A stretch of DNA of 64,000 bases from contig JABLTG010000042.1 of the NCBI GenBank assembly GCA_016618085.1, positions 52,749 to 116,748 of the forward strand. Direction: 5' to 3'. Below the pieces are notes generated by a model. The model was not told the DNA's origin, searched no databases, and saw only the letters and a program-made list of their open reading frames with translations. Every line of letters begins with the position of its first letter. Position 1 is the first letter of the stretch. Below, piece by piece: positions 7,323-44,507 of this stretch. The position numbers were made by a program, and so were the translations under genes. The stretch comes from Neovahlkampfia damariscottae (lineage: Eukaryota; Heterolobosea; Selenaionea; Neovahlkampfiida; Neovahlkampfiidae).

Positions 7323-9155
7323 TTATTCTTGTTCCAAATACTCAAAGTCTTCATCATCTTCTTCTTCTTCTTTTTCTTTTTCTTTTGCTTTCAATTGAAA
7401 TACGTAATATGTTAATAAACCAATCACCACTAAAAGTATAACAGTGGTTGCAGAATACAATGTGATAAAGAAATATAAATCAACAACTGGTTTATCATCA
7501 GGGTCTTCATAAACACCATTATATAAATCAGCAACACCAAAATATTTAAAATTGGATTCTGGTTCTCCTCTGAATGAGATTGGTAATAAAAGTGATAAAC
7601 ATCCATTTGATGGTTCAACATCTGGATTTTGTAAAAATGACATTAAAATTTGCATTCCACAATCATCATTTGTTCCATTTGTTGATGACACAGGTGAATT
7701 CATAATTACAAAATGATTTGCATTTGAAATAATATAGGAGTATTTGTTTTTTGAAATAATATTTTTTGAAAATTCTTCTGCATACTTCAATGGTGTTTGT
7801 GAATCAATTTTTGAACTTAAAATTAAAACCGAAACATCATTATCCGAAAAAGTTTTGTTAAAGAATTCATTTTTTTCTGAAATTGGCCATTGATTAATTA
7901 AGTCAAATGATTTATAAGAATTTCCAAATCCAAAATAACTATCTTTGTATTTTTGTTTTAATTCTTCACTTGAAGGTATATTATTCATTGTACCCCAAAG
8001 TTCAGAATAAAATACATGTCTTTTCATTATGGAAGAATGTTGTGGTGTTGATAATGGAACTGAATTTCTTTCTTCATACAATTCAATTGATTTATGTAAA
8101 ACTGGTACATCATATTCATCACATCTATCTAAACGAAATAATAAAGCAGGTAACACATCTCTACTATAATAATTCATTGTTAATTCAGCCATAAAATTTC
8201 TCCAAAAATCAATGTTATGCTCTGTTGTGACTTCTGAACAAGTGCCATTCAAAAATACTCTTTCAAAAACTTTTGAAACATATTCTTTCACATTTTTTTG
8301 AAATAATTCTCCTGATGGTCCGGTTTCAAGGGTTTCTTTTGAACAGTAATAATTTTTTTGACATTCTTTTAAAATTTCAATTCCAGCTTCATTTATATTT
8401 TCGTCTTGGTGGTAAAAAAGTGTTCTATTTTTGTCATCGCCTGATGGTGAAAAAGGACTATCAAGAATAACAGCTGAAACTAAACTTGGCTTCATTTGCA
8501 TCAATTGATTGATTACTAAACTTCCATATGACAATCCATAAATAAAAACTTTTTTGTTAGATTTAATATTTTTTAAAATTTCATAAATGTCTTTTGCAAT
8601 AGTGCTGGTTGAAAATCCATTAACTTCATTTTTTGGATAATTTTCTTTGAATTCTTCAATACAAGATGGAAATTCTTCTTCAGTTATTCTTACACCTCCT
8701 TCGGAGCCAGATGTTTCTGCTTGTGTATGGATACATGATAAACGTTCAGATCTACCAACACCTCGATGTTCAATACTATAAATATCAAAGTCTCCTTTTA
8801 ATTTTGTAAAAAGAGTATCCATTAAAAAATCTAATTCTGAGCTTGATTTTCCTAAAGAACCACCAGAAAGAAACAAAATATTATTTGAACTGGTTGATAT
8901 CTTTCTTTTCAAGTGAACTTTAATTTTTTTTTCTCCAGTAGTGCCATTTAGTAAGTTGGTTTTAAAAATTGAACATTCTGCTTGTTCGATTAATTTTTTA
9001 TCAATAGAATTTATGGTTTTTTGATAATTTTTTCCACCAGAAACTGAAAATGTTTTGGTTTTGATTATATTTGTGTACAGATTACATTGTTTCCATGTAA
9101 GTTGAGAAGAGCAAACTCCGAAGAAAAAAACCGCAACAAATAATTTCCAAATCAT
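7323..9155 (-). CDS. Membrane-anchored alpha/beta-hydrolase, prolyl/tripeptidyl peptidase-like (TAP/S33 type)
   Basis: A 610-aa protein, probably a secreted-face serine exopeptidase. The ATG at 9155 opens a signal peptide (MIWKLFVAVFFFGVCSSQ). The fold shows an oxyanion region FLSGGSLG, the nucleophile elbow GLSYGS, a catalytic Asp region (VLILSSKIDSQTP) and a His in NANHFV. This spacing and the late Asp-His pair match TAP-like C-terminal hydrolases. One transmembrane helix (TTVILLVVIGLLTYYVF) and an acidic cytosolic tail end the protein, making it type I. Several NxS/T sites fit a glycosylated ectodomain. S28 peptidases are a less likely alternative. Confidence 0.75.
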   Translation of the reverse strand: MIWKLFVAVFFFGVCSSQLTWKQCNLYTNIIKTKTFSVSGGKNYQKTINSIDKKLIEQAECSIFKTNLLNGTTGEKKIKVHLKRKISTSSNNILFLSGGSLGKSSSELDFLMDTLFTKLKGDFDIYSIEHRGVGRSERLSCIHTQAETSGSEGGVRITEEEFPSCIEEFKENYPKNEVNGFSTSTIAKDIYEILKNIKSNKKVFIYGLSYGSLVINQLMQMKPSLVSAVILDSPFSPSGDDKNRTLFYHQDENINEAGIEILKECQKNYYCSKETLETGPSGELFQKNVKEYVSKVFERVFLNGTCSEVTTEHNIDFWRNFMAELTMNYYSRDVLPALLFRLDRCDEYDVPVLHKSIELYEERNSVPLSTPQHSSIMKRHVFYSELWGTMNNIPSSEELKQKYKDSYFGFGNSYKSFDLINQWPISEKNEFFNKTFSDNDVSVLILSSKIDSQTPLKYAEEFSKNIISKNKYSYIISNANHFVIMNSPVSSTNGTNDDCGMQILMSFLQNPDVEPSNGCLSLLLPISFRGEPESNFKYFGVADLYNGVYEDPDDKPVVDLYFFITLYSATTVILLVVIGLLTYYVFQLKAKEKEKEEEEDDEDFEYLEQE

Positions 9156-41953: not shown

Positions 41954-42127
41954 TGTTGTTTGTGTATTCAGTTTTGACAAATCAGAAACGACTTCAGTAT
42001 TTAGTTTTAATTTTTGGAAAAAATACTCAATAACATTTTCCAAGAGTAAAATTGTCAGCTCCTGAAATAAGTTCAATCAATTTAATTGACCAATCATGTA
42101 TTTTTTATTTTCGTCTTTCATAAAAAC

Positions 42128-42469
42128 ATGAGCACAAAGTTCATGCTGTTTTATGCCGTCGCCTTCATGATGACATATAAAATGGATAATATCTGGAAGA
42201 TAGATCCAGAGGACTTAACAGCGATGCCAGATCAAAGGTATCCAAAAATTCAAGACACTTTTCTTTCAAAGGTGACTTTTATGTTTCAAAAAGTCGTCAA
42301 TTTAAGCTCAAATTTTATGTTTTCAATCATATTATGGATATTTTTTGTTGAAGTATGGAGCATTATCAGATTTTTTGGATTTAAATTTCCAATTTTTGAC
42401 AATGAAGAAATTGGAAACCACAATCCAACAATTTCAAAAGTATTCAGACCCAGAATTTTAAGTAGATAA
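42128..42469 (+). CDS. Small membrane protein, unknown
   Basis: A 113-aa protein with a weakly hydrophobic N-terminus (FMLFYAVAFMMTYKM), an amphipathic middle, and one strong helix (FMFSIILWIFFVEVWSIIRFFGF). No family is recognised. The mixture of a possible presequence-like start and one strong helix would be consistent with a mitochondrial or ER accessory protein. It converges on the thioredoxin reductase gene, with an unusually long 250-bp gap that contains the SECIS. Confidence 0.55.
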   Translation: MSTKFMLFYAVAFMMTYKMDNIWKIDPEDLTAMPDQRYPKIQDTFLSKVTFMFQKVVNLSSNFMFSIILWIFFVEVWSIIRFFGFKFPIFDNEEIGNHNPTISKVFRPRILSR

Positions 42470-42582
42470 TCCTACTTATCATCATTCTTGTAAATAAAAT
42501 CATTGTACATTTCTTATTGTTTGGGTTTGGTTGCGTCATGTTCAAAATATTAAAAGTTAATTTTGTTTATTTATTTTTAGTT

Positions 42583-42650
42583 TTAAATATTTCTCATATC
42601 AAATTTTTTCCAGTGAGGAATTTTAAATTTCATTTTCATTCAACATTCAA
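42583..42650 (-). promoter_or_regulatory. SECIS element (form II) in the 3' UTR of thioredoxin reductase
   Basis: Read on the minus strand, this region folds as a selenocysteine insertion element. Helix I pairs 42642-42650 with 42583-42591 (nine consecutive pairs, two of them G-U). The quartet is ATGA (42639-42636) opposite TGA (42596-42594). Helix II has about nine pairs with one G-G and one A-A mismatch. An unpaired AAAA (42624-42621) lies 11 nt after ATGA, followed by a short upper stem TTCC/GGAA and a five-base loop. Form II is assigned because the unpaired adenines sit in an internal bulge below a mini-stem. The position, 70 to 138 nt after the TAA, is normal for a SECIS. Confidence 0.8.
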
Positions 42651-42686
42651 GAATAAATTACAAAATTGACTAGAAACTAATTATTT

Positions 42687-42720
42687 AGTTCCTTATTATC
42701 ATTTTAGATAATAAGGAACT
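42687..42720 (-). promoter_or_regulatory. 14-bp perfect hairpin directly after the Sec codon
   Basis: The arms AGTTCCTTATTATC and GATAATAAGGAACT are perfectly complementary, with a six-base loop. On the minus strand it begins at the last base of the TAA and eight bases after the TGA. A downstream stem-loop at this distance could aid UGA recoding or simply mark the 3' end. It is palindromic, so strand is inferred from context. Confidence 0.55.
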
Positions 42721-44507
42721 TATCCTCAACAACCAGTGTCTTCTGTCACACCAAATTCCAATTTGGTATAATTTTCAGCAACAGTTGGATGAATACCAAT
42801 GGTATTATCAAAGTCATCTTTAGTCGCTTTTAATTTCATAGCAATCGCAATTCCTTGAGTGACTTCACCAGCATTTGGACCAACATAATGAAAACCTACA
42901 ACTTGTTCATTTTCTTTTAAGCAAACCAATTTAAAGAAAGCTTGATCTAATCTATGAGGTAAGGCATGCTCTAAAATATTGCAATTCTTTTTATAAATGA
43001 TTAAATTATCTTCTCCAAATTTTTCAATAGCTTTTTCTTCAGAATAACCACATGCTCCATATTCACTTGGAGTGAAAACGGTAGTAGGAACATTAATATA
43101 ATCCATTTTCTTTGCACCATTTTCTTTATAGAGTCTTTCAGCTAATAATTTTCCAGCAGCAATAGCAACAGGTGTAAGTTCAAGACCTCCTTCAATAATA
43201 TCACCAATACCATAAATATGAGGTGCAGATGTTTGTTCATATTCATTTACAATAAGTTGACCTTTTTTATTAACTTTTACACCACACTTGTCCAATCCTA
43301 AGTTTTGTGTATCAGAATATCTTCCAATTGCCATCATGACAGTGTCAAATATTTCCTAGTCAAAAATAAATTCAAAAAATATTTTTACAGTATAAACTTT
43401 ATCTTCTTTTGTATTTTTATATTCAACTTTTAAACCATTATCAATTTTTTCAATTTTAAGAGGAATACAAGGTTGTAAGAATCTTGTTTTATGATTTTTT
43501 TCATCTTCTTCTGAAGTACCATTCTTCATGACTTCAACAATTTTTGAAACTGATTCTTGATCAAACTCTCTTAAAGGAGTACTTCTCACCATAATTGTTG
43601 TATCTAAACCAAGACTTGTCATAAATCCAGCACATTCCAAAGCAATATAACCAGCACCAATGATCAATGTTTTACCAGGTGATTTTTCCAATGAAAATAA
43701 GTCATCGCTTGTAATACATAATTCAGCACCTGGAATATTTAAAAGTGATGGTCTACCACCAACAGCAACAACAAATCTTCTTGCTGTGACTTTTGATTTT
43801 TCACCTTTGTTATCCAATAATTCAAGAGTGTGATCATCCAAAAAGGTTCCAAGAGCATTGAAATATTTAATTCCATTCTTTCTTAAATCTGATTTATAAC
43901 CAAAATTTAAAGATTTGATGTGTTGTTGAACCTTTTAAATCATTAAAATTGATCAAAAAATACATTTTCTCTCAAGGATTCCCATTCAAATTTGAATTCA
44001 GATTTTTCATGTTTCCAACCATAGTATTTGGATTGTTCCAAATAATCACCATATAAACCTCCTGTATGCATCACTAAAATATAATTAATTGAAACAAAAC
44101 ATATTTTACATTTTTTTGGAATACAACCAACCTAATATGTTAATAGATCTAAAAAATCAAACATTAACGCAGGTACCACCTTTCAGAGAAAAGTTATTTT
44201 ATAATGATTAGTATTACCTAAATTCCATGAGGTTCCATGGACAGTAGGCTTTACAAAATCTAAAACAGCAACAGTATTACCTATTGATTTTCTTTAGTCA
44301 TTTGGTGGAATTACCTTTATTTTTTTTTGTTGTTGCATTTGGATCTAAGTATCTTTGAGCTCTTTTAGCACATGCTAAGCCTCCACTTCCACCACCAATT
44401 ACTATAATATCAAAATCATATCCATGATTTGTTTCAGGTTTATCTGTGTCCTTCATGATGTTTTCCAATTTTTGTCGTTTTTTCTTTGGAGATTCTGAAG
44501 TTTTCAT
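42720..44507 (-). CDS. Thioredoxin reductase, selenoprotein (TGA at 42728-42726 read as Sec)
   Basis: NADPH-dependent flavoenzyme of the large, animal-type TrxR group. Several exons on the minus strand encode the FAD motif [41 protein letters not shown] (redox CVNVGC), IPKKLMHTGG, then GAGYIALECA and the GIGD region. The dimer interface closes with VGFHYVGPNAGEVTQG and the active-site His in GIHPTVAE. The last frame reads TEDTGC-TGA-GGA-TAA, which is the C-terminal Gly-Cys-Sec-Gly redox centre of TrxR, then a TAA stop. Reading TGA as a stop would remove the Sec-Gly. A SECIS lies downstream. The ATG at 44507 overlaps a CCAATG. Confidence 0.85.

Follow-up and report, generated by a model that had tools for sequence, protein, structure and literature searches.

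The thioredoxin reductase gene and its frame end

In the window (the whole 64-kb stretch of DNA analysed here), a gene for a thioredoxin reductase (TrxR; TrxR1 where a second gene has to be told apart) is followed on the same strand by a hairpin and a SECIS-like element, and faces a converging open frame (Table 1). Intron ends were placed by hand with the conserved frame kept. The spliced product scored 595.7 bits with family TIGR01438, for which the cut-off is 475.85, and matched the rat-type TrxR chain 1h6v with 520.7 bits in an alignment that reaches the C-terminal tail, the Sec position having been entered as Cys in this query. The product is thus placed by its sequence among the large-type TrxRs, for which NADPH-dependent reduction of thioredoxin would be the function.

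Table 1. Features of the TrxR locus (window coordinates) and further genes carrying a selenocysteine (Sec) UGA in the same genome
Feature	Position	Strand	Remarks
TrxR (TrxR1) gene	44507 (ATG) to 42722-42720 (TAA)	-	Seven exons, 527 residues counting Sec; spliced translation
TrxR introns	44314-44281, 44217-44180, 44162-44132, 44109-44074, 43963-43932, 43388-43356	-	All GT..AG, 31-38 nt
Cys codon TGT	42731-42729	-	
Sec codon TGA	42728-42726	-	From the sequence; between TGT (Cys) and GGA-TAA
Gly codon GGA	42725-42723	-	
Stop codon TAA	42722-42720	-	
Hairpin	42720-42687	-	Perfect 14-bp stem, 6-nt loop; begins with the last A of TAA
SECIS core, form II	42639-42594	-	ATGA 42639-42636, AAAA 42624-42621, mini-stem TTCC/GGAA, TGA 42596-42594
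Converging open frame	42086-42469	+	127 aa
TrxR2 gene	Contig C143 (loci L009/L019)		Ends GNC-Sec-G
GPx1, GPx2 genes	Contigs C221, C55		Sec UGA
SelW-like gene	Contig C307		CSS-Sec
Three MsrA genes	Contigs C277, C26, C35 (loci L038, L039, L040)		TGA replaces the catalytic Cys

The frame ends GGT-TGT-TGA-GGA-TAA. A preliminary description of this DNA had given the end as Gly-Cys-Sec-Gly-stop, and this reading stands; only the Cys codon, given there as TGC, is in fact TGT, which specifies the same residue. A C-terminal Gly-Cys-Sec-Gly tail is therefore present, with Sec assigned on the strength of the decoding machinery found in the genome, and selenocysteine is very probably the last-but-one residue of the encoded thioredoxin reductase. 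TGA serves as a stop codon too, since 5 of the 32 window frames of at least 200 aa end in TGA, the TrxR frame among them.

The gap of 250 bp between the TrxR stop and the converging frame agrees with the value described previously. That it far exceeds the gaps at other convergent ends is borne out in part: when stop-to-stop frames of at least 200 aa were compared without gene models, two pairs lay within 3 bp of each other or overlapped, and the others were hundreds of bases apart. Inside the converging frame there is also a perfect 10-bp inverted repeat (window 42386-42417).

Relatives were searched with the protein up to the Cys before Sec; 8,000 candidates were scored and the best 120 listed. 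Among the matches listed, the best named relatives are the TrxRs of Willaertia magna (58% identity), Acrasis kona (56%) and Naegleria lovaniensis (56%). By these matches the genome, which is AT-rich, is probably that of a heterolobosean, a single-celled eukaryote related to Naegleria. In all 18 records fetched from these 120, the protein ends at the Cys before the Sec site. Annotation often truncates Sec proteins at the UGA, and the relatives may likewise carry a UGA after the terminal Cys; judged from these protein ends, the 18 records speak against a sequencing error at the TGA. The present gene suggests that public records of heterolobosean TrxRs may lack the catalytic Sec-Gly tail.

The Sec machinery and further Sec genes

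The genome (20.4 Mb, 307 contigs) was searched for the Sec-decoding set, and tRNA-Sec, SepSecS, PSTK, SPS2, EFSec and SBP2 were all present. The tRNA-Sec gene (C93:17926-18011) scored 54.4 bits against a cut-off of 47, with anticodon UCA taken from the alignment; it was missed by ARAGORN. Six further places reach 47.2 bits in the same search, and the one tested is a tRNA-Ser. SepSecS scored 352.5 bits and the fourth domain of EFSec 76.1 bits, the closest solved chains of the latter being eEFSec. PSTK was matched over one stretch (89.6 bits, below the whole-protein cut-off of 382.35), and SPS2 reached 127.8 bits when joined (cut-off 125) and has a TGA of its own in LKG-Sec-GCKIPQER. SBP2 is one of eight L7Ae-domain matches, and its closest solved chain is SBP2 (E 1.5e-26). 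The preliminary description had predicted a selenium-using protist, for which tRNA-Sec, EFSec, SBP2 and SPS2 were to be sought; all four were found. Because tRNA-Sec and EFSec are present, the objection that the machinery is absent fails.

Besides TrxR1, eight genes carry a Sec UGA: TrxR2, two GPx, three MsrA, a SelW-like gene and SPS2, the possible Sec protein families searched genome-wide being Rdx, GSHPx and PMSR. In MsrA, the position bearing the TGA is that of the catalytic Cys. The second of the Rdx genes, at C10:15052, carries Cys instead and is not a Sec form, and the MsrA matches on C221 and C98 have no TGA. The organism is thus a protist that likely uses selenium and has at least nine genes with a Sec UGA.

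The SPS2 frame (contig C99, locus L014) has TGA as its stop, and the frame that follows it, which we take to be OGFr-like, looks separate; for these two reasons a C-terminal fusion of SPS2 is not seen here.

The probable SECIS of the TrxR gene

A form II SECIS is defined by an ATGA/GA core, an AA 10-13 nt from the core, helix II and an extra mini-stem, and all these features are present on the minus strand downstream of TrxR. The element runs from ATGA through 11 nt to AAAA, then a 4-bp mini-stem (TTCC/GGAA) with the 5-nt loop TCACT, the 3' arm and TGA. Counted from the first base of the Sec codon, its ATGA lies 89 nt away, and the element starts 80 nt after the stop. Strand, ATGA and TGA, the spacing of AAAA and the mini-stem are as first described, and helix II, put there at about nine pairs, comes to 8 in the fold, which also shows a G.G mismatch and leaves two bases beside ATGA unpaired. 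In layout (11-nt arm, AAAA, mini-stem, 5-nt loop) the element equals that of TrxR2. In TrxR2, 51 nt separate the first base of the UGA from the SECIS downstream, and no hairpin follows that UGA.

The descriptor used for searching asks for ATGA, an arm of 11-12 nt, AA, no fewer than 8 pairs in the helix, TGA and an energy at or below -4.8; its thresholds are the TrxR element's own values, set after inspection of this element and three others. The TrxR element was the only match on both strands of the window (128 kb of strand), and also the sole match within 400 nt of the TrxR UGA. In simulated sequence with matching dinucleotide composition there were 969 matches in 53.1 Mb, or 1 per 55 kb. The chance of a match in the 250-bp gap would be about 0.005, which is a lower bound because the settings were chosen after those four elements had been seen.

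Outside the window the descriptor was applied to the fetched loci (245,082 bases of strand, overlaps counted and the window left out), where 13 matches were obtained: 10 fall on elements treated in this text, some of which recur in several overlapping loci, and 3 are unrelated. Altogether, a SECIS of the same architecture lies 3' of the stop in seven of the nine Sec UGA genes (TrxR1, TrxR2, SPS2, GPx1, GPx2, SelW and one MsrA). Genes found after the descriptor was fixed provide a fairer test of it. GPx1, GPx2 and SelW each have one strict match within 400 nt of the stop (3/3), their elements having appeared earlier among other matches in a looser scan. For the MsrA genes with TGA a strict match was found in one of three (MsrA3); MsrA1 and MsrA2 have no SECIS by the descriptor, their stops being taken from the open frame and possibly wrong. 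A weaker look-alike at MsrA2 was seen by eye, unreported by the looser scan; none was seen at MsrA1.

Around the TrxR 3' end, where the preliminary description had called for a covariance-model check, the Rfam SECIS families remained silent: neither the window, searched at curated cut-offs, nor 42300-42740, searched at E 10, produced a match. The best SECIS of the genome with Rfam SECIS_1, the best of three, itself scores 30.9 bits, below the cut-off of 35. Because even this element falls under the cut-off, the model is insensitive and its silence on the TrxR element is weak evidence.

That best-scoring element is an orphan (locus L008 1513-1558, contig C10, plus strand) with no recognisable selenoprotein gene upstream. 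A short frame near it reads MNNS-U-PSCYFALFF...ERKR and might encode a 37-aa membrane selenoprotein with U-x-x-C; no Pfam match to this frame (S-U-P-S-C) was found at E 1. Another Rfam SECIS match, on C197 (22.2 bits, locus L010), was taken as chance, as its frames show no known Sec gene.

A covariance model was also built from the TrxR2 SECIS alone (R1), a multi-sequence model being unavailable because a MAFFT alignment of four SECIS cores put the 3' arms wrongly. With R1 the TrxR element came only fifth in the window (E 0.65), and the top place was 8072-8121 (20.6 bits). The same model missed the SPS2 SECIS in locus L018, where its best match was 3173-3127.

By the descriptor, the TrxR element is the weakest of the seven gene SECIS (-4.8 kcal/mol, 8 pairs). 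In a fold of the whole 169-nt stretch its helix II has a probability of about 0.1, and with flanks of 20 and 60 nt the mean pair probability is 0.81 and 0.73, respectively. With the same flanks the values were 0.90 and 0.90 for TrxR2, 0.93 and 0.94 for both GPx1 and MsrA3, 0.96 and 0.84 for SelW, 0.81 and 0.81 for the C10 orphan, 0.72 and 0.72 for GPx2, and 0.07 and 0.44 for SPS2. In these computed folds the TrxR SECIS is weak among the elements tested, yet no outlier.

A hairpin after the Sec codon

Between the Sec codon and the SECIS, a hairpin starts 5 nt after the UGA and overlaps the stop codon, its stem including the last base of the true stop. It is the strongest RNA structure at this locus, and the preliminary description makes no mention of it. 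It is the longest perfect hairpin in the window for loops of 3-12 nt (the next has 11 bp), and the 40 nt holding the stem fold with -19.2 kcal/mol. Two more Sec genes have similar stems: a perfect 12-bp stem lies 7 nt after the UGA in the spliced mRNA of SPS2, and a perfect 10-bp stem 6 nt after that of GPx2. At the other six of the nine Sec UGAs (TrxR2, GPx1, SelW and the three MsrA) no such stem was found. As background, a stem of at least 10 bp follows 3-12 nt downstream at 98 of 42,608 window positions (0.23%, the surroundings of the TrxR hairpin counted) and at 3 of 4,132 positions near the nine Sec genes. The 10-bp line was chosen after the TrxR1, SPS2 and GPx2 stems had been seen, so that no exact p-value is given.

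By analogy with SelN, SelS and SPS2, we propose that the three stems may be Sec redefinition elements (SREs); a stable stem-loop a few nucleotides after the Sec UGA is what TrxR1 has. It is a tentative proposal, which we hold at slightly less than even odds, that three of the nine selenoprotein mRNAs found, those of TrxR1, SPS2 and GPx2, rely on a pair of signals for Sec insertion: besides the SECIS of the 3' UTR, a perfect stem of 10-14 bp located 5-7 nt past the UGA. In bacteria a hairpin follows the Sec codon, and if the two-signal proposal is true, the combination of SECIS and UGA-proximal stem might be seen as a modern analogue of that arrangement.

Interpretation

Gene, codon, tail, form of the SECIS, hairpin and machinery genes can all be read directly from the DNA. 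Together they point to a functional selenoprotein TrxR gene of a heterolobosean-like protist, in which the UGA would be decoded as Sec via the SECIS; we give this a probability of about 0.92. Sec incorporation is predicted to proceed as follows. Ribosomes would arrive at the UGA, where EFSec, recruited by SBP2 on the SECIS, would deliver Sec-tRNA-Sec, so that the UGA is read as selenocysteine; translation would then stop two codons later, at UAA. The resulting enzyme would have a Gly-Cys-Sec-Gly redox tail as in animal large TrxR. The hairpin may add a further effect: near the mRNA entry site, its 14-bp stem could slow a ribosome with the UGA in the A site, and the slowed ribosome might favour recoding over termination, as with the SelN SRE and SelS stem-loop 1.

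The hairpin might instead be unrelated to recoding, as an element of mRNA 3'-end formation or stability or as an inverted repeat of a mobile element, and this possibility has real weight, though we think it the less probable origin. It sits at the start of the 3' UTR, facing the converging frame, and such stems occur at only 3 of the 9 Sec UGAs, TrxR2 being without one. On the other hand, stems of at least 10 bp are rare both in the window and near the Sec genes, and yet TrxR1, SPS2 and GPx2 each have one 5-7 nt past the UGA, in two cases within the coding sequence. The mobile-element version was dropped because the hairpin arm is unique in the genome, occurring once per strand, which argues against a repeat family.

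It is improbable that the Sec TrxR is real and the element at 42639-42594 not its SECIS, the true one lying elsewhere or having another form. The weak helix, the missing Rfam match and the fifth place with the one-sequence model would fit such a case, but neither strand of the window holds another place that fits the descriptor, the 400 nt from the UGA included, and the element shares its layout with the TrxR2 SECIS. That the UGA simply ends translation and leaves a truncated, Sec-free reductase is very improbable: the 18 fetched records do end at the same Cys, but here an in-frame Gly codon and stop come next, followed by a SECIS-like element, in a genome with the Sec machinery and eight more Sec UGA genes.

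Comparison with known systems

In animal-type large TrxR, the X of the C-terminal Gly-Cys-X-Gly tail is Sec. The protist enzyme is, like this type (PDB 1h6v), a flavoenzyme with the CVNVGC motif and the tail, and differs in its gene by six tiny introns and a hairpin that overlaps the stop codon. Closer to hand, the TrxRs of Willaertia magna, Acrasis kona and Naegleria, compared as proteins only, are alike (56-58% identity), and their records stop at the same Cys.

A Sec TrxR has already been published for Acanthamoeba and, by citation, for Naegleria. The available text of PMC8038987 describes Acanthamoeba castellanii TrxR-L with a pre-terminal UGA that is followed by Gly and UAA, predicts a SECIS for its 3' UTR, and calls the TrxR of Naegleria alike to it. 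The SECIS there is of type 1 and lies 282-355 nt after the stop, whereas here it is of form II and starts from 80 nt. The Sec machinery of N. gruberi is cited as da Silva 2013 in the consulted parts of PMC8038987 and PMC4561486, and the latter reports that N. gruberi SPS2 is fused to a methyltransferase-domain polypeptide. The Sec TrxR itself is therefore of a known kind, and the hairpins are the novel part. No SRE in a TrxR or GPx gene was found among titles and abstract openings of papers listed on selenocysteine recoding and protist selenoproteomes, most subscription papers lying outside this set.

With three short, strong UGA-proximal stems, this one genome offers test cases for how SRE and SECIS share the work of recoding. 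As far as the accessible portions of the sources tell, the SREs of SelN and SPS2 (PMC4561486, PMC8704476, PMC3628699) are likewise stem-loops a few nucleotides past the Sec UGA. The SelN element starts 6 nt after it (PMC3628699), and one study reports an SRE in every eukaryotic SPS gene of its set that contains UGA (PMC4561486). These SREs lie in coding sequence, whereas the TrxR hairpin overlaps the stop. The hairpin resembles SelS stem-loop 1, as described in the same parts of PMC3628699: there, too, Sec is penultimate and the 3' UTR opens with a stem-loop near the UGA, where it promotes Sec insertion. The two differ in protein, in distance from the UGA (9 nt in SelS, 5 nt here) and in the nature of the evidence, the function having been tested in SelS and being predicted from sequence in TrxR.
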